DNA of 23,603 nt. Origin: a virus. The notes below the pieces were generated by a model. The model had not been told where the DNA came from and ran no database searches. It worked only from the letters and a program-made list of their open reading frames with translations. The stretch spans positions 1 to 23,603 of IMG/VR virus record IMGVR_UViG_3300008108_004932. One strand, 5' to 3'. The translations under genes and the position numbers were made by a program. This document shows, piece after piece, positions 2,012 through 21,569 of this stretch (positions are counted from its first letter, which is position 1; every line of letters begins with the position of its first letter).

Positions 2012-3274
2012 TCATGCTGATGTAGCAATCAACGAAGTTAGGAGTTTTCCTTTTTCTATATAGTTTCTAATATAGGTAGACCCATCAGGTTTACCTTCTG
2101 CTTTCACACGCACTTCCAAAAATGATTCTTCATCTTTGTCTTCAATAATCATTCTTGGTTTACCGCTGGAGTCAATAATCTTTACTTTCAAATCCAAATT
2201 TTGAATTGCGCCCATCACTTTACCGAAATCATAAACTTTAGCAGCACCACCAGCAAGTTGAACCAAAGTTACATTTTCTTCACCGCTTGTTGCAAACTTT
2301 TGTATACCACTACCCAAATTGTTTAACAAAGTCGTTTTAGTTCTTTTGTTTTTTAGCATAGTGTTCATTTTGTTTGACACATAATCATATACTAGATACA
2401 CAGCCTTTTCAACTTTTTTCTTCTTTAAAAGGTTAGTGTAATCGTCTTCCAATTCTGAAACATCAATACCTGCAAGTTTATTCCAAAGTGTAATTTGTTT
2501 TTCAAACTCAGAACCGCCAACCTGACCGAACTGTTTAACATCATCTGCTTTTAGAGAGATATTAACGTTTGTTGCTTTACCATCGACCTTAACTTTCACG
2601 TCAACCTTTGTGCCTTTCTGGTCACCGACGCCATCACTGATTACATCAATTACATTTTCTTGATTGTTTTCGTAAAGTAGTTTAGACCATTTCGTTATGG
2701 TTTGACCGTTTGCGTATTTTGCTGCCGCATCAAAAAGATCACTGTACGAGTCCCATGAACTTTGATCTAAAAAGAATTTCATATTGGATTCAGCAAGCGA
2801 CAAATAGAATTGAACTGTATCTTTGATTTTGGGATTCTTATTTGGTGATGGGAATGATTTTTCTACAACCTTACCATTTTTAGTTGAAAGGGAGGAAATG
2901 ATTTCCTTTACTTTACTTGAGTCAATCGGTTGATTCTTATTTACAAATCGAGCAGCAATTGCTGCGGCAAGAATACCTTCAGCAATGTCGCCTTTGTTAC
3001 CCTTGTCTTTAGGTTTATCAATAGCACCAATAGCAACCAAACCGCTAGTTGTTTCTAGGATCAAATCTAAGGCTGCTCTTTCTGTACTGGATGATGATGC
3101 AAGTTGCGAGTACTTTTTCAATACTTGCTTGTTTTTATCGTTATTTTTTATAATGACAGTTTTGATGCCCGCTTTTATGCCAGTTCTACTATTCATAGAA
3201 GAACCAACAACACTTAAAAGACCAGCAGTGTATTTGGCTAACTGTCCTTTACTTGTAGTTCTTAATTGCGCCAT
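2012..3274 (-). CDS. putative PD-(D/E)XK nuclease-like phage protein
   Basis: A 420-residue protein without a securely recognised name. The middle holds a plausible PD-(D/E)XK nuclease core: GDIAEG with Glu near residue 99 in a helix, then VDVKVKV with Asp near 225, and a strand ending in SLK (240-242), followed by ADDVKQFGQVGG. The spacing E...D...xLK, with the acidic residue in an extended beta strand, resembles restriction-like endonucleases. The N-terminal 90 residues are basic and Ser/Thr/Lys-rich. Its ATG overlaps the stop of the upstream metallopeptidase by one base (TAATG). It lies downstream of gene 41 and before the dTDP-sugar genes. The function is inferred from motif order only; a structural or DNA-binding role is also possible. 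Confidence 0.45.
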   Translation of the reverse strand: MAQLRTTSKGQLAKYTAGLLSVVGSSMNSRTGIKAGIKTVIIKNNDKNKQVLKKYSQLASSSSTERAALDLILETTSGLVAIGAIDKPKDKGNKGDIAEGILAAAIAARFVNKNQPIDSSKVKEIISSLSTKNGKVVEKSFPSPNKNPKIKDTVQFYLSLAESNMKFFLDQSSWDSYSDLFDAAAKYANGQTITKWSKLLYENNQENVIDVISDGVGDQKGTKVDVKVKVDGKATNVNISLKADDVKQFGQVGGSEFEKQITLWNKLAGIDVSELEDDYTNLLKKKKVEKAVYLVYDYVSNKMNTMLKNKRTKTTLLNNLGSGIQKFATSGEENVTLVQLAGGAAKVYDFGKVMGAIQNLDLKVKIIDSSGKPRMIIEDKDEESFLEVRVKAEGKPDGSTYIRNYIEKGKLLTSLIATSA

Positions 3275-3657
3275 TACTCATAAATTTTAGGATTTTGCTT
3301 CCCATAATTCCTCATTATAACACCAGCAACGCTATTTGCTTCATTCTCAAAGTCACTGCCAGTTTCGCCAGCATTTCGGGTTAAAATTCCCTTCAAGTTT
3401 TGCTGATGATGAACCATTTCGTGAGCCAAAGTGCGAAGCACGTCAGCTAGGTGACGACCACCTGTATTTAAATAGATTTTCTTTTCGCTTGGACTATACC
3501 CACCGAAACTTTTGTTTTCAATTGCAACGTTTTTGTCTGGGATCAACTCAAGTGCAGGCATTTCTTCAAGTTGCAGGAAGTCGCGAACATAGTTCATAAA
3601 GTCATCTATGTGCTCGGTCTTTTCTTCTTCCTTCAGGTACTGTTTGAACTTCAACAT
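3274..3657 (-). CDS. small zinc metallopeptidase-like protein with capsid-targeting-like N-terminus
   Basis: A 127-residue protein whose core is LAHEMVHHQQ (HExxH at residues 79-83), the zinc-binding and catalytic signature of zincins, followed by DFENEAN (Glu 104/106), which can provide the third gluzincin ligand. The N-terminus MLKFKQYLKEEE resembles the capsid-targeting sequence of T4 internal proteins (MKTYQEFIAE), with a possible prohead-protease site after LKE. The ATG at 3657 gives a 56-base overlap with the upstream gene and only a weak AAGG 13 bases upstream, so the start is less sure; the next Met (residue 21) would remove the whole targeting-like segment and has no Shine-Dalgarno. 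The substrate is unknown. Confidence 0.65.
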   Translation of the reverse strand: MLKFKQYLKEEEKTEHIDDFMNYVRDFLQLEEMPALELIPDKNVAIENKSFGGYSPSEKKIYLNTGGRHLADVLRTLAHEMVHHQQNLKGILTRNAGETGSDFENEANSVAGVIMRNYGKQNPKIYE

Positions 3658-4264
3658 TGAGTTTATAAACCTTTTTTAAGAATTTTTTCCAAACTTTAGG
3701 ATCGGCAGTACGAAAGTGCATACGATACATAAAGATCGCTTCGCTTTCTCGCCAACCTATTTTATGGGCTGCTCTTAATTTATTTATATTCAATCTTTCG
3801 GCTTGAGTTTCGTATGCATGAGCGTCCAATTCGTCTGGATTCCCATAATACATCGCCTTCAATTTATGCTGTTTTGGTTTAGGTTTATACTCTTTCTGTA
3901 TGAGCCAATGACGCCCTCTTTGCTGATGTTTATGGCGATACTCATGATGAATAGCCCGAACAATCTTTATCGCCAGGTTTTTAGCACCCTTTTGAGTTAT
4001 GATCGCCTTTTTAACTTCTTTTGGAAAGTTTAATTGAATGTATATGTGTTCGGGGATAATATCCCGTATTCGATAACAATAATGACCGTTTACAATTACA
4101 TTATGATCTGGATAGTATTCTTCGTCAAATCGACCTGAAGAAAAACAAACAATGTACTTCTTAAAGGCAGCATTTAACTCGCGGATCATAGAGGGAATAT
4201 GCTTTTCGCCGACCCAATTTTCGGCAAGAGCAAAAACCTTCTTTTCGATCCGCTCTAACTTCAT
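3602..4264 (-). CDS. zincin-like phage protein with HEYRH motif
   Basis: A 220-residue basic protein. Residues 107-111 read HEYRH, an HExxH zinc signature inside a helix (KIVRAIHHEYRHKHQQ), and PDELDAHAYE at 143-152 offers an acidic third ligand about 35 residues later. This resembles phage metallopeptidase-like proteins, but the family is not one I can name. The C-terminal 40 residues are Lys/Arg-rich. The start overlaps the stop of gene 41 (ATGA type, 4 bases). With the next gene, which also carries HExxH but has different surrounding sequence, it makes a pair of different zincins. Activity is inferred from the motif; some HExxH phage proteins are structural. Confidence 0.6.
   Translation of the reverse strand: MKLERIEKKVFALAENWVGEKHIPSMIRELNAAFKKYIVCFSSGRFDEEYYPDHNVIVNGHYCYRIRDIIPEHIYIQLNFPKEVKKAIITQKGAKNLAIKIVRAIHHEYRHKHQQRGRHWLIQKEYKPKPKQHKLKAMYYGNPDELDAHAYETQAERLNINKLRAAHKIGWRESEAIFMYRMHFRTADPKVWKKFLKKVYKLNVEVQTVPEGRRKDRAHR
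3781..3788 (-). promoter_or_regulatory. perfect match to T4 late promoter TATAAATA, inside a gene
   Basis: The minus strand reads TATAAATA here, identical to the T4 late -10 element recognised by gp55-type sigma factors. It lies inside the HEYRH protein gene and 124 bases before the ATG of the small metallopeptidase at 3657, so it could drive late expression of that gene. In AT-rich DNA such an 8-mer is expected once or twice per strand by chance in a window this long, so this is only a candidate. Confidence 0.2.
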
Positions 4265-7094: not shown

Positions 7095-9647
7095 TTATGA
7101 GAAGAAGTCATCTAGGGAATTTGTTTTCTCGCTTTTCCAATTAATACTATTCAACACAATAGTCAATGGGTCAAGAAATGATTTCTGGAATTGAGTATCA
7201 TAATCTAGATACGGTCCCAAGTCAAATTCTTTTGGGATAGTTGTTAGGAACGAGATCACACTACACTGTAATGGATTTGGTTCTTTTACATAAAGGAATT
7301 TGATCTTTTCGCCTTCTTTGATTTCTTGATACTTCTTTTCAAGACCCTTTGAACGGATCGCATTATTAAAAATAAGCGCACCCTTAACATGAATTGGTGT
7401 ACCTTTCGCATAAACACTATTTTTGTCAGCATATTCTTTTACACCATTCACTGATCGTGGAAACGCAATATCTTCAACAGGCAACGATTTAAAATGTCGA
7501 CGGAAATCTGCAATGAACTGAATCAAAGCGTCTTGATCTTTTGTAAGAATAACTTCAAACGCTTCTTTAATCTTTTCACGACAAGCGTTCGGCGTTGATG
7601 ACTTAACTGCTTCAAGACCCATGATCTTCAATTTAGGCTTCTTGTATTCAACGCCTTCGTTATTATACACGTTGATCAAATATCTTTTCTTCGCAGTCCA
7701 GATTGCTTTATCCGCAAGAGCCTCGCGCTTCATCTTCATCTTCTGCGCATAAGCATTTACATATTCAGACAACTGTTGATACGAAGAATCAATATATGGC
7801 TGAAGTTTCTGTTCACAAAACTGATCCATCGCACGAATGATCTTAAGACGATCAACCTTATCAATATTTGGAATAGACTTTTTAATCATCGGACCAAGAT
7901 TCAAGTAGATTGAATCGGTATCAGAAGCAATTACATAATCAGCATTTCGCGTTTTAAGAATCTTATTGATGTAATCGTTAAGTTGATTTTCAATCCAACG
8001 AATTGATAACTGACCGCTCAAAGTAATCGCTTCAGCAATACGAATATCAAAGAAACGGAAGTACTGATTACCGATAGCACCGTAAGCAGAATTCAGCGTA
8101 ACCTTTTTAGCCAACTGAATGTTATTGAACTTTGCTATTTGCTTTTCAAGTTCGCGTTTCTCAGATTCAGAGACAGACTTCTCAAGCAACTTCTTTGCTT
8201 CCGTAGCCTTGTTCTTATACATGGCGCGATCTTCATACATGCGCTCCATGATTTCAGACAAGAACCCTTGCTTACTGATATCAAACAACTGACCGTTTGG
8301 AGTCAGAGTTACTTTCAGTTTTTTCAAATCGGCTGTTGGAATATTACCAGCGAGTAATGAATCAACATTGATCTTACTACCATACGCTGCCATATAATTG
8401 CGCATGTCTGGCGTATAGTCTTTCGGTTCAATGAGCATCTCTGGCGAAAGATTATATTGCATGATCAAGTGAGGATACAGACTGTTCAAGTCAAACGATG
8501 CAACCCATTCATGCATACCAAGGATCGGATCCTTAACGAACGCACCAGCATATTGACTATCCTTCGCTGAGTTTTTGCGAGGAGGAATAACCATATGCTT
8601 GGCTTTAAGGGTATTGTATGTGATCGTATCCCACATTCTTACCTGCGAGAATACGTCATCATAGTTTACCTTGGCGTCATATGCCAGAGTCATCGCCAGT
8701 TCAATCAATCGAATTTTATCTTCAAGTTTCTGAACAAGTTCTACGTCGCGAATATTATACTCGATGAACTTCTGATAATCCAAACGATACAATTGATGCA
8801 GATTTTCGTATTCAGAATAATCGAGTTTACGTTCACCTAATTCAACGCTGCAGATATGATCGAGTTTGTATGACTCTTGGTTTGGATTTGACGAATACTT
8901 ACGATACAATTCATAATAGTCAAGAATGGCAATACCCATCAAGTCATAACAAACTTGAACCTTACCTCTGAAGTTTACTTCGCTTGAAGAAACTTTACCC
9001 CATGGAGAAAGTTTCAACGCCTTATCCTCGCCAAAAAGGCGAGTGATGCGCTTTACGAGATAAGGGAAGTCGAAGAAGCGAACGTTCCAGCCACTCACAA
9101 TATCAGGATAATATAAAGTCCACTTGTCGATGAACTTTTCAATCAGTTCAAATTCATCCTGACATTTGATATACTCTGTATTCTCAAATGTATTATTGAA
9201 CTCACCACAACCAAAGACATAGTTGCGACCATTCATTCCAAGAGTGATTGCTGTAACTTCTTCGTTTGCTTTACTTGGTTCAGGGAAGCCATTCTCAGAA
9301 CCCACCTCAATGTCGATATATGCAACGCAGATATGAGTCAAGTCCCAATCAATTTCCTCTGGGAAGATATCTGAGATAAAAGCATATTCAAAACGGTTTG
9401 ATCCATAAATTTCAAAGTTGTTTACATCTTTGAATTCTTCTATAAACGATCTGGCTTCGCGAATAGATTTGAATGTCTTTTCTTCAACATACTCTTTGTT
9501 TAGAGTTTGCCATTTGGTCGGTGTTTGAGACTTCACATACAACTTTGGATTGTAGTGAACTTTTTTGCGGAATCGTTTACCGTCTTTAATTCCGCGAAAC
9601 AACACATTGTCGCCTATAAGGGCGACATTAGTGTAGAATGCACTCAT
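7095..9647 (-). CDS. 43: family B DNA polymerase (T4 gp43)
   Basis: Replicative polymerase with 3'-5' proofreading; 850 residues against 898 in T4. Exonuclease motifs: DIEVGS (112-117), GWNVRFFDFPY (186-196) and YNIRD (297-301). Polymerase motifs: A SFDLNSLYPHLIM (384-396), B KKVTLNSAYGAIGN (514-527) and C IASDTDSIYLNL (574-585). The last residues NSLDDFFS match the T4 clamp-binding tail SLDFLF, so gp45 contact is expected. The ATG overlaps the stop of the upstream Sm-like gene (ATGA) and I see no clear Shine-Dalgarno, which suggests translation by coupling. No intein or intron is present. In T4 regA sits directly upstream; here it is about 11.9 kb away. Confidence 0.97.
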   Translation of the reverse strand: MSAFYTNVALIGDNVLFRGIKDGKRFRKKVHYNPKLYVKSQTPTKWQTLNKEYVEEKTFKSIREARSFIEEFKDVNNFEIYGSNRFEYAFISDIFPEEIDWDLTHICVAYIDIEVGSENGFPEPSKANEEVTAITLGMNGRNYVFGCGEFNNTFENTEYIKCQDEFELIEKFIDKWTLYYPDIVSGWNVRFFDFPYLVKRITRLFGEDKALKLSPWGKVSSSEVNFRGKVQVCYDLMGIAILDYYELYRKYSSNPNQESYKLDHICSVELGERKLDYSEYENLHQLYRLDYQKFIEYNIRDVELVQKLEDKIRLIELAMTLAYDAKVNYDDVFSQVRMWDTITYNTLKAKHMVIPPRKNSAKDSQYAGAFVKDPILGMHEWVASFDLNSLYPHLIMQYNLSPEMLIEPKDYTPDMRNYMAAYGSKINVDSLLAGNIPTADLKKLKVTLTPNGQLFDISKQGFLSEIMERMYEDRAMYKNKATEAKKLLEKSVSESEKRELEKQIAKFNNIQLAKKVTLNSAYGAIGNQYFRFFDIRIAEAITLSGQLSIRWIENQLNDYINKILKTRNADYVIASDTDSIYLNLGPMIKKSIPNIDKVDRLKIIRAMDQFCEQKLQPYIDSSYQQLSEYVNAYAQKMKMKREALADKAIWTAKKRYLINVYNNEGVEYKKPKLKIMGLEAVKSSTPNACREKIKEAFEVILTKDQDALIQFIADFRRHFKSLPVEDIAFPRSVNGVKEYADKNSVYAKGTPIHVKGALIFNNAIRSKGLEKKYQEIKEGEKIKFLYVKEPNPLQCSVISFLTTIPKEFDLGPYLDYDTQFQKSFLDPLTIVLNSINWKSEKTNSLDDFFS

Positions 9648-9937
9648 ACGATCAATTGTTTAGGAGGGGTGACGATTCCACCGAACATTGAGCTGTAAGT
9701 GTTTTTAACTTCGTCCGTTGGGTTACCCATTGTGACTACGTTACTCAGTCCTATTGAAACGAGCCTCTCGCCCTCTATCAGACTACACCAAGGCATGAAG
9801 CCAAACGTGAAACCGTCTTGTCATGGGCGAATAACAATTGCTAGCGGATTCTTTAATGTGATGAGCGTTTCATCTTCAAGAGTTACCTCACCAATAATCT
9901 CTTCACCTGTAATTAATTTAAGAATTTTAATATTCAT
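9644..9937 (-). pseudogene. Sm/LSm-like phage protein interrupted by an in-frame TGA
   Basis: The frame is open over 97 codons except for one TGA at 9823-9821 (codon 39). The first part reads MNIKILKLITGEEIIGEV, the second part includes FTFGFMPWCSL and ends FGGIVTPPKQLIV, whose stop overlaps the gene 43 ATG. The pattern of a small beta-strand protein starting with I.L.sGe.iI..V, then a LKNP strand and a later FMPW segment, is what I know from Sm-like proteins of marine T4-like phages. Both halves are needed for one fold. AGGA lies 7 bases before the ATG. If the stop is real, the product is a 38-residue fragment unless TGA is read through; a sequencing error is possible. TGA clearly ends other genes here. 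Confidence 0.6.
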
Positions 9938-10208
9938 TTTCATTTCCTGTTTTTCTTTGTTTGGACATTGCCTTCCATCTCCTTACAGTAGGAGTGGTTT
10001 CAACTTCCTCTGGCGTCTCTATTATAACTCTTTCGTAACCGTCAAGCAAGGTTTTTTCCTTTATACTTCTCGGTAAATTGTTACAATAAAACACATCGTT
10101 GTGCATTGTCCAGGTATCTTTTCCAACTTTAAGATACCAACCCTGAAACTCTTTGATTTTTATTTCGTTGCGAGCGAAGTAATCACGCAACTCAGAAAGA
10201 GAGTGCAT
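9927..10208 (-). CDS. hypothetical phage protein, 93 aa
   Basis: I do not recognise this family. The protein starts MHSLSELRDYFARNEIKIKE, has a WYLKVGKDTWTM segment with aromatic residues, which suggests a small beta hairpin, and ends in a basic, polar tail (RRWKAMSKQRKTGNENEY). It has no signal peptide or membrane segment. The start overlaps the upstream stop by one base and its end overlaps the Sm-like gene start by 11 bases, so it belongs to the same operon. The tight packing supports a real gene. Confidence 0.6.
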   Translation of the reverse strand: MHSLSELRDYFARNEIKIKEFQGWYLKVGKDTWTMHNDVFYCNNLPRSIKEKTLLDGYERVIIETPEEVETTPTVRRWKAMSKQRKTGNENEY

Positions 10209-20689: not shown

Positions 20690-21000
20690 ATTAACTCCTC
20701 AACATATATTTTCAAATCAGTAATACCACGTTTAATTCTATGATAGGTGTACGCAGGAATATTAATCACATCACCTATTTTCATCTCAATCGGCAATTGG
20801 TTATCTAATTGTAGATACCAACCCTCACCTTCAATTATAGTTATGACTCGCGTCGAATGATCGCGATGCCAAACTAATTCTTCGCTAACAACTTCTTTGT
20901 TGAAGATACGATAAAAAGTGTTAGCGCTGATACGTTCTTCAACGTATGGATTTACCACCAAGTCTTTCCTGAATTTGAGAAATATCTTGGCCAACGGCAT
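20686..21000 (-). CDS. small cupin-domain protein
   Basis: A 104-residue single-cupin protein: WHRDHSTRVITIIEGEGWYL (cupin motif 1, His ligands at the start, Gly-x-Gly turn) and GDVINIPAYTYHRIKRG (motif 2, with PxxxxH). A metal site and small-molecule binding are likely; the reaction is unknown. The ATG at 21000 lacks a Shine-Dalgarno and overlaps the upstream gene by 49 bases. A TTG at 20961, with AGGA upstream, would give a 91-residue product overlapping only 10 bases and still contain the whole cupin. It overlaps dut by 4 bases. Confidence 0.75.
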   Translation of the reverse strand: MPLAKIFLKFRKDLVVNPYVEERISANTFYRIFNKEVVSEELVWHRDHSTRVITIIEGEGWYLQLDNQLPIEMKIGDVINIPAYTYHRIKRGITDLKIYVEELI

Positions 21001-21569
21001 GCCCAGTAAGATGCACTGGTCTTATCTTTATTTGTTAAGCAACGATGACGAGCAACGAAAGAACGAACTCTTGCTGGATCATTATACTTCTTTGCCATTC
21101 CTGATTGACTGAAGTTTACTTTCTTAACACCACCATCGCTGGTGCGCACATAAACTGCACCACCACTTCCTTGACGAAATGGTTTGCCAATACCTTTACC
21201 GCCTGTTGGATCGTCCGCCTCATTTACAGGAACGCAGTTAGGCACCATCTTGTCACCTTTCTTCTTCATTCCTTTTTGAACGTAACCCGTCCAGCATTCT
21301 TCAAGACCTTCTTCGATTGGATAATCAAGAACAACTAATTGCCCTTCATATTCAGCAATCTCACCAATATCACTTTCTAGCAAATCAATTTCCCATTCAT
21401 CTGCTGGAACGTACAATCCACGTTCATAAAGTTTCTTGGCTTCACGAATCAACTCGAAGAACTTTTCAGAACCAGGACGAAAAACGTTTTCAGTAAATGA
21501 AATTCTTTCATCCAAGTGATACTTAACTGCTTCCGACAAAGTTACTTCTTCGTTGATTTTATGAGTCAT
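20952..21569 (-). CDS. conserved T4-like marine phage protein, 205 aa
   Basis: Two recognisable parts. Residues about 25-90 (ENVFRPGSEKFFELIREAKK, then LLESDIGEIAEYEGQLVVLD and YPIEEG) form a phage-specific domain. The middle has WTGYVQKGMKKKGDKMVPNC, a sequence seen in phage proteins of unknown role. The C-terminal part, NDPARVRSFVARHRC followed by TSASYWACRWPR, is a Cys/Arg/Trp-rich domain shared by several phage structural or scaffold-associated proteins. I cannot name a function. It directly follows regA with a 4-base overlap, and is the first gene of the insertion between regA and 43. Confidence 0.75.
   Translation of the reverse strand: MTHKINEEVTLSEAVKYHLDERISFTENVFRPGSEKFFELIREAKKLYERGLYVPADEWEIDLLESDIGEIAEYEGQLVVLDYPIEEGLEECWTGYVQKGMKKKGDKMVPNCVPVNEADDPTGGKGIGKPFRQGSGGAVYVRTSDGGVKKVNFSQSGMAKKYNDPARVRSFVARHRCLTNKDKTSASYWACRWPRYFSNSGKTWW

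Follow-up and report, generated by a model that had tools for sequence, protein, structure and literature searches.

Among the closest described counterparts of the gene considered here are proteins that bacteriophage T4 carries in its head. The T4 internal proteins IPI-III, small restriction inhibitors, combine a ten-residue capsid-targeting leader (CTS) with a small globular cargo and are encoded by accessory genes in a variable locus. Ip1-3, which inhibit Type IV restriction enzymes, are injected, lie in a genomic hotspot, and have only the leader in common (PMC12373910). Targeting is governed by CTS residues 4 and 7 and processing by residues 8 and 10; aspartate at position 10 blocks processing but not targeting (review, PMC9026906). 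The ADP-ribosyltransferase Alt, proven in T4 virions, is a head-carried enzyme that is also injected. Enzymes were reported in cyanophage particles as well, with NMNAT-like proteins or cytidylyltransferases in virions of S-SM1, S-SCSM1, and S-CREM2. For Synechococcus phage S-CREM2, the virion proteome was published with coordinates (PMC10665884 Table 3), and its authors pointed out that such proteins could be contaminants surviving CsCl purification (PMC10665884). Finally, several enzyme domains per predicted packaged and injected protein are found in the polyvalent head-packaged effectors of Iyer et al. (2017), outlined in PMC9503650.

The DNA analyzed here, referred to as the window, is the 23,603-nt IMG/VR virus record IMGVR_UViG_3300008108_004932 (positions 1 to 23,603), containing T4-type genes for UvsX, a DnaB-like replicative helicase, RegA, and a clamp-loader subunit. 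The window contig and contigs of the same species are fragments without head genes, and gp21 and gp23 are seen in related longer records. The gene of interest (3274..3657, minus strand, ATG at 3657), characterized by its ORF, homologs, alignment, AlphaFold2 model, and PDB fold neighbors, encodes a metallopeptidase-like protein of 127 aa, in which a CTS-like leader is joined to a minimal zincin domain with an HExxH motif. The protein shares with IPI-III the ten-residue leader with the same hydrophobic spacing and E10, the small globular cargo, and the accessory gene in a variable locus. It differs from them in that its cargo is zincin-like with an intact HExxH, that E follows the putative cleavage site, and that its packaging, cleavage, and injection are predicted. 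When compared to Alt, the chemistry is different and presence in the head is predicted rather than proven. The cyanophage NMNAT/cytidylyltransferase is also a different enzyme, with virion presence measured for it and predicted for the HExxH protein, although it bears the same kind of leader and is fused or adjacent to the HExxH domain in relatives. Such NMNAT-HExxH-HAD fusions resemble the polyvalent effectors, whereas the window protein has a single domain with a CTS-like leader, the fusions occurring in relatives only.

It is proposed, with a probability of roughly 0.65, that the protein is a CTS-tagged, metallopeptidase-like cargo of a T4-type head, which is injected and acts on a host protein. 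Since its N-terminus has the form of a T4-type head-loading tag, the protein is probably carried in the particle and delivered with the DNA. The gene would be transcribed late, from a promoter box embedded in the upstream gene, and the ten-residue leader, working like the T4 CTS, would attach the protein to the core of the prohead. Cleavage behind LKE is then expected from gp21, the prohead protease, a step to which we give somewhat better than even odds, and an enzyme of roughly 117 residues, globular, would remain in the head with the DNA. Entry into the host at infection, in the manner of the T4 IPs and Alt, seems about as probable as the cleavage. Once inside, the enzyme would most likely cut a host protein of defense or takeover, although this choice of target is tentative. 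The original interpretation is thus supported in part: the leader with its LxE-type end, the fold, and the promoter motif are borne out by sequence, and entry into the virion, cleavage, injection, proteolysis, and action on host defense or metabolism are predictions.

The window protein begins with MLKFKQYLKEEE, with aromatic residues at positions 4 and 7, L at 8, and E at 10. Its first ten codons (MLKFKQYLKE; 3628..3657, minus strand) match, position for position, the spacing of MKTYQEFIAE, the leader of T4 IPII and IPIII read from ipII and ipIII in the T4 genome (NC_000866), and have the properties of a CTS: about 10 residues, hydrophobic at 4, 7, and 8, with E at 10. The motif M..[FYLIVM]..[FYLIW][LIVMFC].E was scored at ORF starts and at internal Met residues of ten related phage genomes. 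It was found at 34/1890 starts (1.8%) and at 6/5654 internal Met (0.1%), a 17-fold enrichment with p=2e-15, a value that is too small because the motif was settled after the N-termini of several genomes had been seen and because homologous matches recur. A better control is provided by decoys in which E10 is replaced by K, S, D, N, Q, or A, none of which was enriched at starts. Variants with G10, L10, E11, or E12 also gave some enrichment at starts, indicating some general N-terminal bias. In T4, the motif selected only 4/264 ORFs, namely ipII and ipIII, which are its templates, gp24, annotated as cleaved by gp21, and gene 61.1. The last one (NC_000866 18966-19130, minus strand; L321) encodes a 54-aa hypothetical protein with the CTS-like start MKTFKEFIKED. 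The T4-type capsid-targeting N-terminus suggested in the original prediction was thus borne out by the T4 spacing and by a start-specific, E10-dependent motif, and the sequence gives good support to a metallopeptidase-like protein with a CTS-type leader. The LxE-type end, suggested at the same time as a prohead-protease-like site, is present; the next residue is E, unlike the A or S found after many other leaders. Candidate sites in gp23 of the relatives, FLSE/ASPT or LLSE/ATTT (the slash marks the site), resemble the CTS end.

The connection of the motif with virion proteins was assessed with S-CREM2, in which all 219 annotated proteins were scanned and compared with the virion set of 52 (PMC10665884). 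A narrower motif, fixed before any S-CREM2 sequence was read, gave three matches, all three detected in virions (p=0.013). A broader version, written after the S-CREM2 reading, gave six matches, five of them virion-detected (p=0.003), and an intermediate version the same six; the test is small, involving three to six proteins. In the part of the S-CRM01 record examined, the annotation contained no usable evidence codes for virion proteins. The matches include a SAM hydrolase, an APH-like kinase (VKRFDAFLTEEE, annotated with a GTG-type start), and a cytidylyltransferase with the leader MKNFSSFLTEA. By analogy with these systems and from the S-CREM2 test, packaging of the HExxH protein appears likely, more so than any later step of its proposed route. 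Such a leader also offers an explanation for the NMNAT, kinase, SAM hydrolase, and Cas9-like proteins in cyanophage virion preparations, for which the authors left packaging versus contamination open. The Cas9-like virion protein of S-CREM2, gp12 (L145 7704-10313, minus strand), has a CTS-like LRFASFMAEAA near residue 17, and its annotated start may be too early.

The first 56 nt of the HExxH ORF overlap the 3′ end of the upstream gene (3602..4264, minus strand), and Met21 offers a tidy alternative start; for these reasons a start at residue 21 needed testing. In the overlap, each third position in the HExxH frame corresponds to a first position in the upstream one. For leader codons 1-10 of ten relatives, the pairwise differences, counted over pairs that are not independent, were 60, 82, and 166 at HExxH-frame positions 1, 2, and 3, respectively. 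Compared with one relative (L010), 9/10 leader residues are retained while half of the codons have changed, and these bases encode a diverged sequence in the upstream frame. As the differences lie at third positions when read in the HExxH frame and not when read in that of the upstream gene, the leader is taken to be translated and constrained, and the direction of this constraint is clear from the sequences. Translation from residue 21 was rejected, because the leader frame is the constrained one. The comparison of N-termini proposed with the original prediction gives the same answer, as close homologs do not begin at residue 21.

Loci of the HExxH family were taken from IMG/VR in two sets (50 and 80), with 93 distinct upstream segments. 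The leader motif directly precedes the domain in 31/93 distinct relatives, when compared to 4.2 (sd 1.9) in shuffles, and appears as MLKFKQFLAEA, MLTFKQYIAEQ, MKKFKQFLNES, MISFKDFIKEE, MRFREFLNES, or, in Synechococcus phage B23, MNYKQFLRES, a cultured phage in which the family gene is gp332 (MNYKQFLRESTEK). The motif is missing in about two-thirds of the distinct relatives; one of them, S-SRM01, encodes other CTS-like proteins. A universal leader was therefore rejected for the family (31/93 only), and because those other relatives do without it, the leader is regarded as widespread but replaceable. Another N-terminal element, SKxRLF[DE]..., is found in three relatives (L021, L022, L175) and near the start of an unrelated ORF of L021; it is possibly another sorting tag.

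The neighborhoods and domain fusions of the family, as read from sequence, link it with head genes and with enzymes known from virions. In the MRLKALLNENIT subfamily, the gene lies directly after gp21 in 16/16 loci (L031-L044, L046, L047) and before gp22/gp23 wherever the locus extends that far. In the window's own group, it adjoins gp41/uvsX, outside the head cluster. The domain is fused to NMNAT-like domains in L020, L023, L025, L163, and immuto, and to HAD domains in L019 and L025; the 875-aa NMNAT-HExxH fusion of L023 (3757-6384) has YLQEARYNKFLKES twice between its domains, like tandem prohead-protease sites. Consecutive genes in L160/L161 encode an HExxH-HAD protein (MKKFKQFLNES), a DUF6267 protein (MFGFKTFLKEQ in L160), and a cytidylyltransferase. 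The HExxH-HAD and DUF6267 proteins have CTS-like starts; the labels HAD, DUF6267, and cytidylyltransferase reflect sequence resemblance to L019 and G001. Longer contigs with an identical gene contain a DUF6267 gene (MLSFSTYLQEE) and a cytidylyltransferase-like gene about 4 kb downstream.

Because the gene follows gp21 in one subfamily, a role in the prohead is the main rival of the proposed one. The protein would enter the prohead core by its leader and work there as a second maturation protease, trimming core or cargo, including the NMNAT-HExxH polyproteins, and not as an injected effector. Both the position between gp21 and gp22/gp23 in the 16 loci and the YLQEARYNKFLKES linkers repeated between domains of the fused polyproteins are consistent with such trimming, but a maturation protease should be retained more regularly than this gene, which is accessory in the window's group. 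Moreover, wherever the loci contain head genes, gp21 is among them, and the linkers could be accounted for by its specificity for LxE. A second maturation protease is considered unlikely.

The surroundings of the gene in the window's group are those of a variable slot. The upstream gene encodes 220 aa with an HExxH of its own (AIHHEYRHKHQQ...NPDELDAHA). This second HExxH protein (AIHHEYRHKHQQ...NPDELDAHAYETQAE) was found in at least 80 IMG/VR loci and gave no match in Pfam and PHROG; BLASTP did not support its homology to the immuto fusion's second HExxH. The interval between the upstream gene and rmlB contains the HExxH gene, by itself or accompanied by another gene, or only other genes, or is empty (L271, L280), and relatives with an upstream gene 75-83% identical are without the HExxH gene. 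The downstream gene of the slot (2012..3274, minus strand) encodes a 420-aa protein matching phrog_3560 (E 4e-95); in relatives (L236-L284), other genes take its place or it is missing. The pattern is similar to that of the hotspot containing T4 Ip1-3 (PMC12373910). Slot proteins of L264, L269, and L272 look PD-(D/E)XK-nuclease-like by eye and gave no Pfam match.

The T4-type late-promoter box TATAAATA occurs as one perfect copy within the upstream gene (3781..3788, minus strand), 123 nt before the HExxH ATG. The count alone was rejected as evidence, as 1.17 copies are expected, and the box is meaningful only because it is conserved. It is present, inside the upstream gene, in 37/37 distinct relatives found by protein sequence, and GAT/AAT-ATA-AAT is fixed at synonymous sites while adjoining codons vary (in segments selected by the motif). 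The HExxH gene stands downstream in 9/37 and is missing in 28/37, some of the 28 loci ending soon after the gene. The perfect late motif noticed earlier is therefore present and conserved, but specificity for the HExxH gene was rejected, as the box is also kept without that gene downstream; being conserved with or without it, the box probably serves the variable slot and not the HExxH gene alone. In S-SRM01, there are 35 copies of TATAAATA, most of them 28-39 nt before an ATG. A conserved late-promoter motif upstream of the gene is supported by these sequences.

The globular part of the protein contains the segments LAHEMVHHQQ and ETGSDFENEAN. The first includes the HExxH motif, HEMVH (residues 79-83; 3409..3423, minus strand), with H79 and H83 as presumed zinc ligands and E80 as presumed catalytic residue, and the second includes ENEAN (residues 104-108; 3334..3348, minus strand), with E104 or E106 as presumed third ligand. 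In 28 aligned sequences, 33-80% identical to the window protein, H79, E80, H83, E104, E106, and A107 are invariant. The AlphaFold2 model, with a mean pLDDT of 85.6, is a small confident fold whose first helix starts at residue 10, and residues 1-6 of the leader have pLDDT below 50. Its helices 70-88 and 102-121 give the arrangement of zincins/gluzincins, an HExxH followed by a conserved Glu in a downstream helix. Foldseek against the PDB gave minigluzincins, IrrE, and Wss1 as weak matches (best E 2e-3), and it also gave clear viral relatives, including IrrE-like and cytidyltransferase-like multidomain proteins. The minigluzincins (abylysin, jannalysin/selecase), the best PDB matches, are likewise minimal zincins with HExxH, of about 105-127 aa, but the structural match is weak (best E 2e-3, TM 0.37-0.59), the identity is 15-20%, and they are without a leader. 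IrrE/ImmA (M78), SprT, and Wss1 share the HExxH and the conserved Glu in a helix, with weak profile and fold similarity; they differ in that no match exceeds a curated cut-off and that the window protein is without an added DNA-binding domain. No Pfam model scored over its curated cut-off, the best being DUF6782 with 21.5 bits against a cut-off of 27, and assignment to IrrE/M78, SprT, M91, M76, or DUF6782 was rejected for this reason. The expectation of an HExxH enzyme agrees with these data, since the motif was confirmed at 79-83 and the modeled fold is zincin-like; a zincin-like metallopeptidase fold with predicted catalysis is supported by the residues and the fold, and proteolysis is considered probable on the same grounds.

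The similarity to IrrE and Wss1 touches on the second rival, in which the protein is a cytoplasmic metallopeptidase of the IrrE/SprT/Wss1 kind that works during infection and whose N-terminal segment resembles the CTS by convergence. It would agree with the place of the gene among replication genes in the window's group and with the relatives, S-SRM01 and most distinct ones, that are without the leader. However, the leader has the T4 spacing with dependence on E10, its frame is constrained, it is predicted to be disordered, the motif is associated with S-CREM2 virion proteins, and one subfamily lies in the head cluster; a cytoplasmic protein of this kind is, in our view, slightly less likely still than the maturation protease. 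The remaining rival, a head protein that is packaged but inactive as a protease and serves as an inhibitor or binding protein like T4 Ip1-3, recalls the inhibition of Type IV restriction enzymes by those proteins and the similarly variable slot, and is the least probable of the three, as the invariance of H79, E80, H83, E104, and E106 over 28 diverged sequences favors a working metal site.

From this analysis, the head-loading signal of T4 appears to be recognizable in the sequences of distant T4-like phages, so that injected enzymes might be listed directly from genomes, with the HExxH protein as a candidate injected protease. In the open-access literature searched, no description of an injected protease as T4-like head cargo was found. 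A wider proposal, held at a little under even odds, is that the T4 CTS serves T4-like phages beyond the T-even group as a general means of loading enzymes for injection (metallopeptidase, NMNAT, HAD phosphatase, SAM hydrolase, kinase, and a Cas9-like protein), sometimes as polyproteins whose domains are separated by repeated prohead-protease-like sites, and that the HExxH protein is an injected protease of this set.

Two further observations concern other parts of the window. A protein encoded at 20952-21569 (minus strand) contains CWTGYVQKGMKKKGDKMVPNCVPV, and a similar motif recurs in L044, close to the portal gene, and in G005, where it follows a CTS-like start. At 9644-9943 (minus strand), two short ORFs resemble pieces of one Sm-like protein (weak Sm_like match), and the split is possibly a frameshift.
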